Source: Planctomycetota bacterium
GTDB taxonomy: Bacteria > Planctomycetota > J058
Length of the DNA: 64,000 bases
Direction of reading: 5' to 3'
Assembly (NCBI GenBank): GCA_003695705.1
Contig: RFHU01000012.1
Span: forward strand, 24,083-88,082
Below the pieces are notes generated by a model that did not search any database, had not been told where the DNA came from, and worked only from the letters and a program-made list of their open reading frames with translations. A program made the position numbers and the translations under genes. This document shows positions 13,283-21,679 of this stretch, in pieces. Numbering within the stretch: the stretch's first letter is position 1; every line of letters begins with the position of its first letter.

Positions 13283-14131
13283 TCAGAAGAGGAGCAAGCC
13301 GAGCTTGCGCCGGTACTCGGTGACGAGGGGGTCGCCGTGCCCGAGCGCCGCGAAGATGGCGACCATGCCCTCCCGCACGGGTCCGCGGGCGATCTCGCGG
13401 TCCGCGCTCCCCGCCGCGTAGAGCTCCTCGAGGGCCTCTGCGTAGCGCCCCTCGCCGGCGAGGCGCAGGCCGAGGGCGACGCGGCGCTCGGGGCCTTCGC
13501 CGGCGGCGAGGGCCGCGCGCAGCTCCTCTTCGGGCGGCTGCTCCCGCCCTCGCTCGACGAGGGTCATCCGCGCCCGCAGGGCCTCGGCGGCCTCGGCCTG
13601 CTCGCTCCCGCCGGGCACACGCCCGAGGAGCTCGCGGGCCTCCTCGAAGTCGCCGCGCTCGACGAGGAGCCGGGCCAGCCCGAGCAGCGCCTCGGCGTGC
13701 TCGGGCTCTTCGGCCAGGATCGCGCGGAAGCCGGCCTCGGCCTCCGCAGGGCTCTTCGCTTCCAGCGCCTCGGCGCGGCGGTCCGCCGGCGCGGGGGCGA
13801 GATCGTCGAGGAAGCGGCGCAGCTCGGGCTCGGGCAAGGCCCCTTGGAAGGAACGCACCGGCTGGGCGTCGCGGAAGGCGACCACCGTCGGAACGCTCGT
13901 GATGCCGAACACAGCCGCCAGGTCGTTCGCGCGGTCCACGTCGACCTTGGCGAGGACCACCGCGCCCTCCCGCTCGTTTACCAGTCGCTCGAGCAGGGGC
14001 CCGAGCATCCGGCACGGCCCGCACCACGTTGCCCAGAAGTCCACGATGACGGGGACTTGCAGGGACCGCTCGACCACCTCCCGCTCGAAATTGCGCGCGT
14101 CGACGTCGACGATCCAGCCTTGTTCGGACAT
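13283..14131 (-). CDS. Thioredoxin-TPR protein, CnoX/YbbN-like
   Basis: VIVDFWATWCGPCRMLGPLLERL..VDVDRANDLAAVFGITSVPTVVAFRDAQPV followed by TPR-like helices. Confidence 0.9.
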   Translation of the reverse strand: MSEQGWIVDVDARNFEREVVERSLQVPVIVDFWATWCGPCRMLGPLLERLVNEREGAVVLAKVDVDRANDLAAVFGITSVPTVVAFRDAQPVRSFQGALPEPELRRFLDDLAPAPADRRAEALEAKSPAEAEAGFRAILAEEPEHAEALLGLARLLVERGDFEEARELLGRVPGGSEQAEAAEALRARMTLVERGREQPPEEELRAALAAGEGPERRVALGLRLAGEGRYAEALEELYAAGSADREIARGPVREGMVAIFAALGHGDPLVTEYRRKLGLLLF

Positions 14132-14322: not shown

Positions 14323-17130
14323 GTGACGCCCGAGCGCCCGCGCCCTCCGCTCTTCCGCGCCGCCGGTCCTGAGGTCGGCTCCGTGGTCCTGGGCTGCCGC
14401 GTGGAAGCCGAACTCGGGCGGGGCGCCATGGGCGTCGTGCTCCGTGCCCGCGCTCCGAACGGCCAGCCCGTCGCCTTGAAGGTCGTCCTCGATGCGGACG
14501 CCCAGCCCAAACGCCGAGAGCGCTTCGTGCGCGAGGCACGCGCGCTGGCCGGCCTCGACCATCCCCACATCGTCCGGCTCCTCCGGGCAGACCTCGTCGG
14601 GCCCGCGCCCTGCATCGTCATGGAGCTGGTCGAGGGCGCCGACCTCGAGGCGGTCCTCGCCGCGGAGGACCGCTCGCGCGACGAGCTCCTGGGGCTCTTG
14701 GAGCAAGCCGCCCGCGCCGTGCACCACGCCCACGAGCGGGGCATCGTGCACCGCGACCTCAAGCCTTCGAACATCCTGGTGACCCCCGCCGGGGAGGCCA
14801 AGGTCGGCGACTTCGGGCTCGTGCGCGACCTGGACCGGCGCACGCGGCTCACCCGCACCGGCGCAATGCTCGGCACGCCGAGCTACATGTCCCCCGAACA
14901 AGTGCGCGGCGACCGCGATGTCGGTCCGCCCAGCGACGTCTTCTCCCTGGGCGTCGTCCTCTACGAAGTCCTCACCGGCCGGCGCCCCTTCACGGGAGAG
15001 TCGGCCCTGTCCCTGATCTCGAGCATCGTCCACGACCGCCCCACCCCACCGTCCTCGCTGCGGCGAGACCTCGGCCCGCGCCACGACGCCCTGTGCGCCC
15101 GAGCCCTTGCCAAGCGTCCTGCCGAGCGCCCCTCCGCGCTGGAACTGGCCGAGGGCATCGCGCGACTGCGCCGCGACGGCGGCGGGCGGCGCTGGGCTCG
15201 GCCCCTCCGCCCCGTGCTCGCGGTCGCAGGCCTGGCGGCCGTGGCCTGCGCGCTCGGGCTCGTCGCGCTGCGCTGGCCACGCACCCTCCCCAGCGCGGAG
15301 GTGCGCCGGCGCGCGCAGCGACTCGCCGAGCGCGCCGACGCGCTCCTCCGCAGCGAGGCCTCTCTCGCCGGCGCGCTCCGCGAAGCCGAAGCCCTGGCCG
15401 CGGAGGTCGAGCGCTTGCGCGCCGCCGCGGCGCCCGAAGATCGTCGCTTGCTCGTGGGCGCCAGCGAGCGCGTCCGCACGCTGACCGGCTTGGCGACCTT
15501 GAGCGCCGGCCGGCGAGCGCAGGCCCAGACCGCTGCCGAAGCGCTCGCGACCGCCGGCGCGCGCGGCGGCGAGGTCCTCGCCGCCGCCATCGCCGTCACG
15601 GCGAGCCCCGTCGAGCCCGCCGCCGCCACGGCGGGCGCGCGGACCCTGGGACGCGCGATCGCGGGCGGCTGGCGTGCCTGCGAACTGCGGGCCTGGCGCG
15701 CCCGCGCTCTCGGGGAGGCTGGACTGCGCGCCCGCCACGACGCGCGCCTGGCCCTCGCCGACCTCGAAGCCGTCGCGCGCCGGCGCCCGCTGCGCCCCGG
15801 CGAGCAGCGCCTGCGCGTGCGGGCCCTTCTCGCGCTCGGGCAGCAGGCAGCGGCCGAGGAGGCCTTGGCCGCCCTCCCCGACCCGCCGCTCGAACTGCGC
15901 TGGGCCGTGGCCCTTCGCTTCGCGGGCGCGGCGCACGCCGAGCATCCGCGCGAAGCCCTGGAGCGCCTGCGCGCCCTGCCTCCTCAGGTCGACCCCGCCC
16001 CCGAACGCGCCAAGCTGGCGCGGGCGGTCTACGCCCTGGCGCGTTCCCGCGCGGCCTCCCTCGAACGACAGGCCGAGCCGAACCCGGAGGCCTGCTTCGA
16101 CCTCGTGGACCGCTGCCGCCTGGCCCGCCTCCTCAGCCCCGCCGAACCACCGCCGCCGGACCTGATCCAGACCCTCCTCCGCGCGGCCCTGGGCAACTTC
16201 GAGCGCGGCGGGCCCGGGCGCGTGGGAGACCCCAAGCTCGGCCACGCGCTCTCGGAGCTCGTCCCCGACGATCACGCCGTGCAGCGACGCCTGGCGGGCA
16301 TGGTCGAGTTCGTTACGGATCACGAGGGGCGGCGGGCCCTCCTCGTCCCCGTGCGGCGTGCCATCGCGCTCGCGGCGGACCCCACCGAGCGCGTCGAACT
16401 GCAGACCGTGCTCTGCGTAACCCTGGCGGCCCTCAACGACCGCTTCGAGTGGGCGTACGACCCCGCGGAGTGCCGCGAACTCGTCGCCGTGGCCAGCGAA
16501 CTTCTGAGCACCCTGGCGCCGGGACCGAAGCAGGGCATCGCCTACGGCGCCCGCGCCGTCGGCCTGCGCCGCTTGGGCCGGCTCGAGGAGGCGTGGAAGG
16601 ACCTCGGGCGCGCCGTGGAGGCCTTGCCCACTCTGCCGCAGCTCCGCTACACGCGCATGCAGGTGGCCCGGGCCTTGGGCAAGACCGAGGAAGCCATCCT
16701 CGACGCCGCCTACCATCTGGACCGCCTGGCCGAAGCATCCCAGCGAACCAACCAGTGCGTCGTCTTTCTCTGGGAGCAGGTGGGACGGGAACGACCGGCC
16801 TTCGTGCGCCCCCGCCTGGAAGCCTTCCTCCGCAGCCGCCCCGAATACGCCGGCTGGTGGGTCCGCGCCGCCCTCCTCCAGCTCCTGGGCGGCGACGCCG
16901 CCGCGGCCGGGCGCAGCCTCGCGCACGCCGTGCACTGGCTGGAAGAGCCGGCCTCGCAGGCCTACGCGCGCCTGCGGCCAACCCACCTGGCCGCCTTCCG
17001 CGCCGCGCGGGACGCCGTCGCCGCACGCGGCGTCGCCGCGCTCGAGGAAGTGGCCCGGCTCGTGGAGGACCTCGAGGACCTGCGACGCCGGTCCGAAGCG
17101 AAACCTGGCACCCTGCCGCACCTTCCCTGA
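14323..17130 (+). CDS. Ser/Thr protein kinase with TM and helical/TPR C-terminal region
   Basis: GRGAMGVVLRA..VALK..HRDLKPSN..DFGLV..MSPEQV; 935 aa; GTG start. Confidence 0.9.
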   Translation: MTPERPRPPLFRAAGPEVGSVVLGCRVEAELGRGAMGVVLRARAPNGQPVALKVVLDADAQPKRRERFVREARALAGLDHPHIVRLLRADLVGPAPCIVMELVEGADLEAVLAAEDRSRDELLGLLEQAARAVHHAHERGIVHRDLKPSNILVTPAGEAKVGDFGLVRDLDRRTRLTRTGAMLGTPSYMSPEQVRGDRDVGPPSDVFSLGVVLYEVLTGRRPFTGESALSLISSIVHDRPTPPSSLRRDLGPRHDALCARALAKRPAERPSALELAEGIARLRRDGGGRRWARPLRPVLAVAGLAAVACALGLVALRWPRTLPSAEVRRRAQRLAERADALLRSEASLAGALREAEALAAEVERLRAAAAPEDRRLLVGASERVRTLTGLATLSAGRRAQAQTAAEALATAGARGGEVLAAAIAVTASPVEPAAATAGARTLGRAIAGGWRACELRAWRARALGEAGLRARHDARLALADLEAVARRRPLRPGEQRLRVRALLALGQQAAAEEALAALPDPPLELRWAVALRFAGAAHAEHPREALERLRALPPQVDPAPERAKLARAVYALARSRAASLERQAEPNPEACFDLVDRCRLARLLSPAEPPPPDLIQTLLRAALGNFERGGPGRVGDPKLGHALSELVPDDHAVQRRLAGMVEFVTDHEGRRALLVPVRRAIALAADPTERVELQTVLCVTLAALNDRFEWAYDPAECRELVAVASELLSTLAPGPKQGIAYGARAVGLRRLGRLEEAWKDLGRAVEALPTLPQLRYTRMQVARALGKTEEAILDAAYHLDRLAEASQRTNQCVVFLWEQVGRERPAFVRPRLEAFLRSRPEYAGWWVRAALLQLLGGDAAAAGRSLAHAVHWLEEPASQAYARLRPTHLAAFRAARDAVAARGVAALEEVARLVEDLEDLRRRSEAKPGTLPHLP

Positions 17131-17259: not shown

Positions 17260-17301
17260 GCGCCTTCGGAGGCGCTCGACGTCGAGCGCCTCCGAGGGCG
17301 C
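17260..17301. terminator. Loop-less palindrome between convergent genes, candidate bidirectional terminator
   Basis: Perfect 28-bp palindrome cggaggcgctcgacgtcgagcgcctccg (17267-17294), extending to a 42-nt inverted repeat with one G/T mismatch; lies between stops at 17130(+) and 17347(-). Confidence 0.6.
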
Positions 17302-17346: not shown

Positions 17347-17997
17347 CTAGAACTCGCCCCCGCGGACGTAGGGGTGGCTCCAGAGCGTGACCTGGAGCAG
17401 CACCGACTTGAGCCAGGCCTGCTGCATGCGCTCGATCTCTTCCGGAGGAGCCCCCGTCCGGCCCAGGAAGGGCTTGAGGGTCGCGGTGATCGGGTAGGTC
17501 AGCAAGATCAGGTCGCGCAGCGGGATGAGCGGGCTGGCCTCGACTCCGTCGGTGGTGTTCTTCCCGCTGGAGTGGTGGCGCCTTCCGATCTCGAATTGGT
17601 AGTCCAGCCAGGCCTGGTCGTAGTTCGCCGCTGCGGTGTCACGAATCCACTGGCCGAACCGGCGCCGTACCGCGTTCAGATACCCCTCGAGGGGAGCTCC
17701 GGTGGTCGGGTCGCAGAAGTGGCGAACCAGGTGGGGCTGGCTGCCCACGAAGCCGTACCAGACGTCGAGGATCTCCTCGATGTGCGGCTCGAGGATCGGC
17801 GCGGAGGCGCGCAGCGCCTCCGCATCGTCTTCCCCGAAGGTGACGGACTTCTTCATCGTCTCGAAGTCGTCGAGGGAAATGGGAGCGCGCGCCAAGTCGG
17901 CGGCGCCGTACGTGTATCCAGGGATCGCGGTTTGGTTCGTCACGGATCTCTCCTTCTCGAGGGTGGCGGCTCGCTTGTAATATCGAGTCGCTACCAA
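17347..17997 (-). CDS. Protoglobin-family haem protein
   Basis: PGYTYGAADLARAPIS..FEEDDAEAL-type start, EEILDVWYGFVGSQPHL, YLNAVRRRFGQWI, WLDYQFEIGRRHHSSGKNTTDG, PFLGR.., LWSHPYV; N-terminus may begin internally (MTNQTAIPGYTYG). Confidence 0.88.
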   Translation of the reverse strand: MVATRYYKRAATLEKERSVTNQTAIPGYTYGAADLARAPISLDDFETMKKSVTFGEDDAEALRASAPILEPHIEEILDVWYGFVGSQPHLVRHFCDPTTGAPLEGYLNAVRRRFGQWIRDTAAANYDQAWLDYQFEIGRRHHSSGKNTTDGVEASPLIPLRDLILLTYPITATLKPFLGRTGAPPEEIERMQQAWLKSVLLQVTLWSHPYVRGGEF

Positions 17998-18023
17998 TAG
18001 AGCAACCCAGGGGAGCCTGGTCC

Positions 18024-18037
18024 AGTCGATTTCGACT
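18024..18037. promoter_or_regulatory. Candidate MarR operator palindrome
   Basis: AGTCGA-TT-TCGACT inverted repeat just upstream of the MarR GTG start, in the 55-bp divergent gap. Confidence 0.4.
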
Positions 18038-18052
18038 CGCTATCGTAAGTAC

Positions 18053-18613
18053 GTGCAAGAACTGACCCCGAGCGAGCTGCTGGAGCGTTTGGCGACCCTG
18101 AGCCGCGCCGAGCGGCGTGCCGCGGGAGCCGAGCTCGGGCTGAACGCCGCTCAACTCGACGCCCTCTCCTACCTAGAGCGCTGCAACAAGTACAGCGACA
18201 CGCCCGCCGCGCTGGCCGACTTCTTGTGCTCGTCCCGGGGAACCGTCTCGCAGACGCTCCTCGCCCTCGAGAGAAAGGGCTTCCTCACCAAGACTCCCGA
18301 CACAGCCGACCGCCGGTCCGTGCATTGCGCCCTGACTTCCAAGGGCAGGGCTGCGCTGGCCATCGCGGCCGCCCGCGACCCGGTGGCCCGTGGCTTGGAG
18401 CAACTCGAGAAGGCGGAGCAGGCCCGGCTCGCGAGTCTGCTCCTGCCCGTCCTCCGCTCGGCGCAAGAGGCCCACGGGAGGCTTACCTTTGGAGTTTGCC
18501 GGACCTGCGCCCATTTCCGCCGACGCGGTCGGCGCTACCGCTGTGGCCTCACGGGCGAACCCCTGACCGCCGCGGACAGCGAGCGAATCTGCCGCGAGCA
18601 CGAACCCTGTTGA
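18053..18613 (+). CDS. MarR-family regulator with Cys-rich C-terminal tail
   Basis: Winged-helix PAALADFLCSSRGTVSQTLLALERKGFLTKTPDTADRRSVHCALTSKG; tail CRTCAHFRRRGRRYRCGLTGEPLTAADSERICREHEPC. Confidence 0.87.
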   Translation: MQELTPSELLERLATLSRAERRAAGAELGLNAAQLDALSYLERCNKYSDTPAALADFLCSSRGTVSQTLLALERKGFLTKTPDTADRRSVHCALTSKGRAALAIAAARDPVARGLEQLEKAEQARLASLLLPVLRSAQEAHGRLTFGVCRTCAHFRRRGRRYRCGLTGEPLTAADSERICREHEPC

Positions 18614-18655: not shown

Positions 18656-21600
18656 TCACTCGGGCGGTGCGCTCGCGGCCTCCTGCGCGCGCCGACGCCA
18701 TGCGTCCGCGGACTTCGGGTCCGCGGCGACGCCTTCGCCCCGCCGGTAGCAGCGCTGCAGCAAGCGCATGGCCCCAACATGGCCCGCACGGGCTGCGCGG
18801 AGGAGGTGCTGCACGGCCCGCTTCGGATCGCGCCTCCCGTTCCTCCCCTCGAGCGCCCACAGCCCGAGGACGTAGTCCGCCAGGCCGACCCCACGCTCCG
18901 CCGCGTATTCGAGCCAGCGCCGCGCCGCGGCCGGGTCGCGGGCAACGCCGTCGCCGCGCTCGCAGAGCCGGGCGAGGTGCACCGCCGCGCTCGTGGCCCC
19001 AGCGGAGATGGCGCGCCGGTACCAGGCTGCGGCCTGCGCCGGGTCGCGGGCAAGGCCCCGACCCTCCTCGCAGCGCCTCCCCAGGGCGGCCATCGCCTTG
19101 GCGTGCCCGCTCTCGGCTGCGCGACGCAGCAGGCGCAAGGCCTCGTCGGGATCGGAGGGGACTCCGTCTCCGTTCGCGAGGAGGATCGAGAGCTGGTACA
19201 TGCCCTCCGGCGAACCTTGGTCCGCGGCGCGGCGGTAGAGCTTCGCAGCTCGGACGGGATCGCGCGATACGCCCAGCCCGTGGCGATGGAGATGCGCCAG
19301 CCGGAGCAGCGCCCTCCTGCTGCTCCGCTTCGCGGCGCGCAGGTACCAGCGCGCCGCTTCCGCCGGGTCGACGGGAACCCCTTGGCCGGTCTCGTAGAAC
19401 TGCCCCATCCGATAGGCCGCGATCGGAAGGTCCGCCTGGGCGGCCAACCGGCACCAGCGCAGTGCTTCGCGCTGGTTCGCAGGAAAACCGCTCTCGCCCC
19501 CGTAGAGGCGCGCCAGGTCGTAGGCAGCTTCCGGGAGTCCCGCCTCCGCGGCCTCGCGAAAGCACCGCTCCGCGGCCTTCAGGTCCCCAGGAACGCCGAG
19601 GCCCTTCTCGTACAGGCGCCCGAGCCGGGCCAGCCCCTTGGGGTTCCCGCCGTCGGCGGCGCGACGGTAGAGGTCGGCGGCGGTCCAGGGTTCCTTCGGA
19701 ACCCCGCGGCCCTGCTCGTAGAGGCGACCGAGCGCGGCCATGCCTTCCGTGGAGCCAAGCTCGACCGCTCGGCGCAGCCAACGCACGGTCTGGGCGTCGT
19801 CCCGCGGAAGGCGGTTCCCTCGCTGATGCTCCGCCGCAAGGAAGAGGACGCGCTCGGGGGAAGCGGCGGCCGCCGCGCGCGCGAACCACCGCTCCGCCTC
19901 CGCCTCGTTGCGCACCACCCCCTCCCCGCGCGCGTAGGCCCAGGCGAGGTAGGCGGAGGCCAGGACTTCCCCTCCCTCGGCGGCGCGTCGCCACCAAGGC
20001 AAGGCCGCCTCGGGGTCCGCCGGGACGCCGTCGCCCTTCATGTAGCGCAGGGCGAGGAGCAAGGACGCCTCCGACTCGCCCCCCGTCGCGGCTCGGCGCA
20101 AGAGCCGCAGGCCCTCCCCAAGGCCCACCGCCGCCTGTTCGTCGTCGCCGGCGAGGCGCCCGAGGTAGAGCGCCGCTTTGGGCTCCCCCTCCGCAGCGGC
20201 CCGCCGCAAGAGACGCAACCCTGCCTCGGGATCGCGATCTCCGGCGAGGCCCTCCCAGAGGATCCGACCGAGGCGAAAGCTCCGTTTGCGAGAAGAGAGT
20301 CCCTCTCCCCGACGGAACCCCTCGGCGGCGCGCTCGTACCAGCGCCGGGCCGCGTCCGCGTCCCGCTCGACGCCCGTACCCGCCGCGCTGCGCACCGCCA
20401 GAACGTAGGCCGCATCGGGCTGGCCGGCTTCGGCAGCCCGGCGGTACCAGGCAAGGGCCTCCTCGTCGCCGCCTCCCCGGCGCTCTTCGAGGATCGCCGC
20501 CAGGCGCACGGCGGCCGCCGCGTGACCGGCCTCCGCGGCTCGACAAAACCAAGCCTCGGCAACGCGCGGGTCCCGCGCCACGACGTCGCCTCCTTGGTAG
20601 CGAAGTCCGAGGGCGTAGGCGGCGGGCGCGTCGCCCGCGTCGGCGGCCACCCGAAGCAACTCCAAACCCCGGGCGGTCTCGCCTGCCGCGAGCGCTCCCT
20701 GGGCCTCTTCGCGGACGGCCGCGGGCGAACGGGGAAGTGGGGAACGCGGATGGGAGGCGACGCGAAGGGCTCGGACCAGTCCAAGCGTCGCCGCAAAGGC
20801 CGCCGCGCCGACGACGACCCGACGCCACCGCACGGCGCGACCGGGCGCGCTCGGACCCGCCTCGGCCAGGGCTCGCGCCAGGGCGGCCATGTCGGGGTAA
20901 CGCGCCGCGGGCTCCTTCTCGAGGCAGCGGAGGACCACGGCCTCGAGGGCCGCGGGCACCTTCGGCGCGAGGCGCGAGGGTGGGACGGGTTGCTGGCGCT
21001 GGGTCGCGAGCAGCACCTCCAGAACCGTGGCTCCGCCCACCGGGGGCCGCCCCGTCAGGGCAGCGTAGAGGGTGGCGCCCAGACCGTAGACGTCGCTGGT
21101 GGGCCGGTGCTGGGCGGGCGACCCCGAGACTTGCTCTGGGCTCAAGAACGCGGGCGTACCGACGAGGCAACCGGTCTGGGTCAAACGCTCGGCAGCGCCG
21201 GGGCCAAGGTCCTTCGCCAGGCCGAAGTCCAAGACCACGGGCGAACCGTCGCTGCGAAGGAAGACGTTGGCGGGCTTGAGGTCCCGATGCACCACCCCGA
21301 CCGCGTGGGCGGCGGAGAGGGCCTCGGCGATCGAGCGGCCCAACGCCCGCACGGCCTCGGGGGACAGGGGACCGGACCGAGCGAGGCGGTCCTCCAGGGT
21401 CTCGCCGACGAGGCGCTCCATGGCAATCCAGGGCACGCCCCGCTCCACCCCAGCGGAGAGAATCCGAACGACGCCCGGATGCCGGAGTCGGGCGAGGACC
21501 TCCGCCTCGCGCTCGAAGCGGGCCTGTTGGGCTGGCGTCGCCTCGCCTCCGGCGAGCAGGACCTTGACGGCGACCTCGCCCCGCTCGGGATGCCGCGCGG

Positions 21601-21679
21601 CGTAGACCTGTCCCATGCCGCCACGGCCGAGGACCTCGGTGACTTCGTAGGGACCGATGCGATGCGGAGTCGCTGCCAC
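18656..21679 (-). CDS. Ser/Thr protein kinase with about 18 Sel1 repeats
   Basis: GRGGMGQVYAA..HRDLKPAN..DFGLAK..LSPEQ; TM; long array of 36-aa units such as STEGMAALGRLYEQGRGVPKEPWTAADLYRRAADGG. Confidence 0.93.
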   Translation of the reverse strand: MAATPHRIGPYEVTEVLGRGGMGQVYAARHPERGEVAVKVLLAGGEATPAQQARFEREAEVLARLRHPGVVRILSAGVERGVPWIAMERLVGETLEDRLARSGPLSPEAVRALGRSIAEALSAAHAVGVVHRDLKPANVFLRSDGSPVVLDFGLAKDLGPGAAERLTQTGCLVGTPAFLSPEQVSGSPAQHRPTSDVYGLGATLYAALTGRPPVGGATVLEVLLATQRQQPVPPSRLAPKVPAALEAVVLRCLEKEPAARYPDMAALARALAEAGPSAPGRAVRWRRVVVGAAAFAATLGLVRALRVASHPRSPLPRSPAAVREEAQGALAAGETARGLELLRVAADAGDAPAAYALGLRYQGGDVVARDPRVAEAWFCRAAEAGHAAAAVRLAAILEERRGGGDEEALAWYRRAAEAGQPDAAYVLAVRSAAGTGVERDADAARRWYERAAEGFRRGEGLSSRKRSFRLGRILWEGLAGDRDPEAGLRLLRRAAAEGEPKAALYLGRLAGDDEQAAVGLGEGLRLLRRAATGGESEASLLLALRYMKGDGVPADPEAALPWWRRAAEGGEVLASAYLAWAYARGEGVVRNEAEAERWFARAAAAASPERVLFLAAEHQRGNRLPRDDAQTVRWLRRAVELGSTEGMAALGRLYEQGRGVPKEPWTAADLYRRAADGGNPKGLARLGRLYEKGLGVPGDLKAAERCFREAAEAGLPEAAYDLARLYGGESGFPANQREALRWCRLAAQADLPIAAYRMGQFYETGQGVPVDPAEAARWYLRAAKRSSRRALLRLAHLHRHGLGVSRDPVRAAKLYRRAADQGSPEGMYQLSILLANGDGVPSDPDEALRLLRRAAESGHAKAMAALGRRCEEGRGLARDPAQAAAWYRRAISAGATSAAVHLARLCERGDGVARDPAAARRWLEYAAERGVGLADYVLGLWALEGRNGRRDPKRAVQHLLRAARAGHVGAMRLLQRCYRRGEGVAADPKSADAWRRRAQEAASAPPE

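Follow-up and report, generated by a model that had tools for sequence, protein, structure and literature searches.

A MarR-family regulator with a conserved four-cysteine tail, divergently paired with a protoglobin gene in a planctomycete and related regulatory loci

Introduction

OhrR, MgrA and Escherichia coli MarR are thiol-switch regulators whose cysteines lie inside the MarR domain itself. A different design is described for ArnR of corynebacteria, in which a winged helix-turn-helix is followed by a C-terminal cysteine domain; the cysteines ligate a [4Fe-4S] cluster, NO abolishes DNA binding, and the regulator represses the hmp flavohaemoglobin gene (PMC12343034). For protoglobins, one report gives nitrite-reductase and peroxynitrite-isomerase activity of the Methanosarcina acetivorans protein in vitro (PMC4020757), and another describes the biological role of these proteins as still unknown (PMC3680402).

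Here, we analysed a protoglobin gene and a divergent marR gene in a 64,000-nucleotide stretch of a Planctomycetota genome (contig RFHU01000012.1; “the window”). The window regulator resembles ArnR in joining a winged helix to C-terminal cysteines and, by prediction, in having a globin-type gene among its targets. It differs from ArnR, which has three conserved cysteines, in carrying four, in a short tail behind a true MarR fold; its predicted target is a protoglobin, and a cluster in it is putative. With MarR, SlyA and MepR (PF01047, PF12802), it shares the fold, the divergent arrangement and a palindromic, predicted operator at its own promoter, but it has an additional C-terminal Cys4 module that the matched solved MarR structures do not cover. 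A MarR fold with redox-active cysteines, as in OhrR, MgrA and E. coli MarR, is proposed here too, with the difference that the cysteines lie in a CX2C-C-C tail. Literature searches returned nothing on this MarR-protoglobin system, which is a weak absence as most subscription journals lay outside their coverage.

Results

Layout of the locus

The features of the locus, in window coordinates, are as follows.

17347-17943, minus strand: protoglobin gene, single domain, about 198 amino acids, GTG start at 17943, assigned by PF11563 and homology to 2veb
17944-18052: divergent promoter region, about 109 bp, delimited from the sequence and the starts set by homology
17980-17994: predicted operator 1, ATATCGAGTCGCTAC, two mismatches to GTATCGANTCGATAC, protoglobin-proximal
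18029-18043: predicted operator 2, ATTTCGACTCGCTAT, core TCGANTCG intact, just ahead of the marR start codon
18053-18613, plus strand: MarR-family regulator gene, 186 amino acids, GTG start; belongs to clade A of the Cys4-tail MarRs
18488-18610, plus strand: C-terminal Cys4 module of the MarR protein, invariant Cys 149, 152, 164 and 180

Two Ser/Thr-kinase genes (14323-17130, plus strand; 18656-21679, minus strand) flank the pair, which stands between them as a divergent unit by itself. A near-perfect 42-bp inverted repeat (gcgccttcggaggcgctcgacgtcgagcgcctccgagggcgc, 17260-17301) lies where the kinase and protoglobin genes converge and is possibly their shared terminator. Also near the pair, the minus strand encodes a thioredoxin-TPR fusion protein that is CnoX/YbbN-like by domain order (13283-14131).

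An earlier, sequence-only reading of this DNA had given the divergent promoter a length of 55 bp, which arises if the first TTG of the longest protoglobin reading frame (17997) is taken as the start. The GTG at 17943 is probably the better start and the gap about 109 bp, because a Shine-Dalgarno sequence (AAGGAGAG) lies just upstream of this codon and the homology to the M. acetivorans protoglobin (MaPgb) begins right after it. The longer frame adds 18 residues that are partly translated operator (“VATRYYK”, which resembles “VSTRYYK” upstream of an Acidobacteria marR gene).

The protoglobin

Judged by its sequence, the minus-strand gene encodes a protoglobin, as had been proposed, and one of the Methanosarcina type. 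It matches PF11563 (E 3.7e-31), has the M. acetivorans protoglobin 2veb as a full-length homologue (phmmer, E 7.5e-70) and, in the alignment to 2veb, conserves the haem-site residues W60, Y61 and proximal H120 (MaPgb numbering), so that both the family profile and the haem site place it among the protoglobins. It is a putative binder of haem and of O2, CO or NO. Unlike 2veb, the window protein is bacterial, and it has a putative regulator of its own beside it. N-termini that resemble signal peptides or those of lipoproteins (e.g. MLRQNLAVSLLAAGTAAACAT, MRSIPHSLIPLLAAACVACVS) are present on the protoglobins L003:4238-4954, L004:5207-5872, L030:7351-8058 and L031:6877-7575, each paired with a clade-A MarR, which suggests exported protoglobins; the window protein has no such N-terminus.

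The regulator and its Cys4 tail

The divergent gene encodes a MarR protein with the Cys-rich tail that the first reading had quoted (MarR_2, E 2.2e-10; MarR, E 1.6e-9), scoring above the family cut-offs (PF12802, 40.9 bits against 27; PF01047, 38 bits against 24.6). None of the NCBIfam MarR equivalogs (BilQ, FabT, MprA, MarR) reaches its cut-off, the best scoring 32.9 bits against 125. An AlphaFold model of the whole protein, made from 14 sequences, reaches a mean pLDDT of 92.6 with tail blocks at 83-93, and the Foldseek matches listed for it are all MarR-family structures (MepR, MarR, SlyA).

Across 27 homologues from distant bacteria, C149, C152, C164 and C180 are invariant and are the only absolutely conserved residues of the tail, forming the pattern CX2C-Xn-C-X14-16-C down to about 27% identity. 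Four conserved cysteines lie within the three or four expected of an Fe-S gas sensor of the ArnR/NsrR kind. The tail had originally been characterized by “five Cys plus His”; the four cysteines stand, and the fifth (C186) and the His after CxxC, which vary among the 27 homologues, are ruled out as conserved ligands. The invariant cysteines likewise support a metal or redox site in the tail, as had been suggested, and no confident match of the tail to Pfam or to a solved structure accompanies them. Pfam has no match for the window's tail, and a PDB profile search restricted to the tail found no solved relative (best E 0.12, MoaE-like chains, not meaningful). Since the tail-only AlphaFold model is poor (pLDDT 68.5) and its Foldseek matches are at E 0.9 or worse, we claim no fold for the tail. 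No second convincing copy of the tail was found elsewhere in the window genome, and no relatives were found on viral contigs. In our judgement, the tail is likely to act as a metal or redox sensor, and Fe-S specifically as its centre comes close to an even chance but stays below it.

The four cysteines could instead form a structural zinc knuckle that serves dimer stability or the orientation of the winged helix, with a classical ligand in the MarR pocket, where small aromatic ligands are often bound, and with the protoglobin merely as target. The spacer between the second and third cysteine varies from 11 to about 20 residues among the homologues, as it does in zinc ribbons, and a few tails weakly resemble the zinc-ribbon families DZR_2 and Trm112p; these matches are, however, not significant across the 27 members (best DZR_2, E 0.0095), and redox genes (thioredoxin, HTHP, glutaredoxin, protoglobin) recur as partners, a pattern that better fits a redox-sensing site. 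We consider a purely structural zinc site unlikely, though it deserves serious weight.

Two loci depart from the common form: the MarR gene at L056:3272-3856 is apparently altered or frame-disrupted, with an altered tail, and at L005:5962-6228 only the C-terminal part of the MarR protein is in frame, beside a redoxin-like ORF.

Recurrence of the pair in other genomes

Protoglobin is present in six, a Cys-tail MarR in 11 and both in five of 294 genomes from the window's phylum; in all five, which span four families, the two genes are adjacent. Over the 294 genomes, with phylogeny ignored, co-occurrence has a Fisher p of 1.5e-7 (3.4e-6 without the window genome). The sole protoglobin genome of the phylum without a Cys-tail MarR contributes a partial match on a 7-kb contig. 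Further divergent pairs come from two MAGs, one of Acidobacteria (L003) and another (L004), which the MarR query had retrieved and which are therefore not independent evidence of pairing, and from an Agarilytica plasmid (L018) that the protoglobin query retrieved. The sequence-only reading had named a lack of co-occurrence elsewhere as one result that would speak against it; the pair recurs in unrelated genomes.

Both families are found apart in many genomes, as would be expected of chance neighbours without any regulatory relation, and protoglobins without such a MarR nearby include L017, L020, L033, L034 and L035. Given the Fisher value, the adjacency in every genome of the phylum that has both genes and the conservation of the operator, chance neighbourhood is nevertheless highly improbable. 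Some protoglobins without a Cys-tail MarR lie next to a different divergent HTH regulator (L035:7227-7616 in a bacterium, HxlR-like by eye; L021:2565-2891 in a haloarchaeon).

A conserved palindrome in the divergent promoter

The Cys-tail MarRs split into clade A (the window type) and clade B with 100/99 support. Of 30 clade-A marR genes, 22 have a conserved 15-bp palindrome, GTATCGANTCGATAC, upstream of them with at most two mismatches; L008, L053, L057-L060, L062 and L063 lack it. The palindrome is common to protoglobin and thioredoxin loci. The upstream regions contain 29 sites in 4.65 kb and the remaining 300 kb of the same loci none, a contrast that indicates specificity but is not an independent test, because these regions are also the source of the motif and some of the loci are closely related. 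We regard the palindrome as a putative dimer operator at marR's own promoter.

Operator 1 is the only window match to GTATCGANTCGATAC with up to three mismatches (one found, 0.68 expected), and the strength of this predicted site lies in its position and conservation, not in its frequency. The relaxed pattern TWTCGANTCGMTAY with up to one mismatch has three matches at two places in the window (17980-17994 and 18029-18043), compared with a chance mean of 0.05; three matches were reached in none of 100 shuffles. Operator 2 departs from the consensus outside its core. It overlaps the inferred marR -10, whose register of 12 nt from the operator start is that of the homologues, where the second site overlaps a TTGTCA-17-TACTAT marR promoter, in most of them at constant register. 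The window promoter keeps the register with weak hexamers (8.5, equal to the shuffle mean), and a promoter scan of the window region found no sigma-70 consensus promoter. Throughout the 6.6-Mb window genome (88% complete), just one further exact match to TWTCGANTCGMTAY was found; it sits inside a coding frame, and no other intergenic one was found.

Good support for the two-gene circuit that had been proposed comes from the repeated adjacency of the genes, from the operator that they share in their divergent promoter and from the lack of any other intergenic operator copy found in the genome. The same combination of regulator and DNA target is seen again in distant bacteria, which makes the pair look like a genuine regulatory unit that responds to redox state or to a gas, and we judge that the protoglobin is very probably controlled by the adjacent MarR.

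Other partner genes

Clade-A regulators without a protoglobin face a CPVC thioredoxin/glutaredoxin gene, often accompanied by DUF2024 and the Rho-binding antiterminator Rof, in Pseudomonas, Enterobacter, Lelliottia and two genomes from the family or order to which the window belongs. The Pseudomonas aeruginosa MarR WP_003086060 (L006), which we take to be the PA0942-type MarR, is 43% identical to the window protein and has the same tail and operator, but is divergent to thioredoxin-DUF2024-Rof and not to a protoglobin. In Rhodobacterales, clade-A marR genes lie beside MOSC-domain genes and in Leisingera also beside ABC-transporter genes. As CPVC thioredoxin/glutaredoxin, DUF2024 and the HTHP haem protein give the neighbours of Cys-tail MarRs a common redox theme, we prefer a redox or gas signal over a drug-type ligand.

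This range of partners, with the same regulator and operator adjoining thioredoxin-DUF2024-Rof, ABC-transporter or MOSC genes elsewhere, would also suit a MarR that governs a wider oxidative-thiol regulon in which the protoglobin is one target among many. In the window genome, however, intergenic exact operator matches lie only between these two genes, and we regard such a regulon as improbable.

The more divergent Cys-tail MarRs L062 and L063 (Polaromonas and Octadecabacter plasmids) are near an aconitase gene, a possible Fe-S or NO-stress link; the Octadecabacter gene also precedes genes for a P-loop NTPase and DUF6522.

A second clade with its own predicted operator

Clade B marR genes lie upstream of protoglobin and point the same way as it in L028 and L029; the Hymenobacter marR ends a co-directional gene run with HTHP, protoglobin and DUF2024. 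Their palindrome differs, with TTAGGANTCCTAA at the marR start in L028, L029, L079 and L080 (ATAGGAGTCCTAT in L080) and a two-mismatch copy preceding the Hymenobacter run. Positions of TTAGGANTCCTAA are L079:3559 and 4275, L029:7168, L028:9143 and L080:241; the second copy in L079 is ahead of a secreted-protein/DUF1330 gene pair, and DUF1330 also adjoins protoglobin in Acaryochloris (L020). Mapped onto the tree, the protoglobin label needs seven changes, at least four of them forced by well-supported branches, so the association has been gained or lost repeatedly. As a separate clade with an operator of its own heads marR-protoglobin pairs, the link arose more than once.

Discussion

Both proteins, the four invariant cysteines, the recurrent adjacency and the conserved operator with its position on the homologues' marR promoter can be read from the sequences; from them we infer repression, autoregulation, metal occupancy and a sensing step. 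The best explanation, which we hold to be somewhat more probable than its alternatives taken together, is a divergent autoregulated repressor-target unit whose Cys4 site would sense metal, redox or NO-type stress and release protoglobin transcription. A MarR dimer would bind the two TATCGA-N-TCGATA-type palindromes between the genes, cover its own promoter and that of the protoglobin and repress both; predicted binding to 17944-18052 would require TATCGAGTCGCTAC or TTTCGACTCGCTAT. The Cys4 module would hold a metal or Fe-S centre or form a redox-switchable Zn/thiol site, and by analogy with ArnR it is most likely the sensor of the autorepressor. Damage to or modification of this site by NO, O2-derived oxidants or other reactive species would weaken DNA binding, and the derepressed protoglobin would then bind the reactive gas or oxidant or detoxify it.

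A broader proposal, which we advance tentatively and think somewhat doubtful, is that a widespread, undescribed group of MarR repressors senses NO or oxidants through a C-terminal Cys4 [4Fe-4S] (or equivalent) module, and that two long-separated branches, with GTATCGANTCGATAC and TTAGGANTCCTAA operators, were each recruited to protoglobins. If this were true, bacterial protoglobin would serve as an inducible defence dedicated to reactive nitrogen or oxygen species. Pseudomonas and Enterobacter plasmid records show the same regulator and operator beside a thioredoxin operon, so that a single set of experiments would account for a regulator group that is widely distributed and apparently unnamed. 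With a dedicated putative repressor whose Cys4 site is conserved and whose operator is predicted, the inducing signal, and hence the role of the protoglobin, becomes directly testable, and the pair could show what bacterial protoglobins are for.
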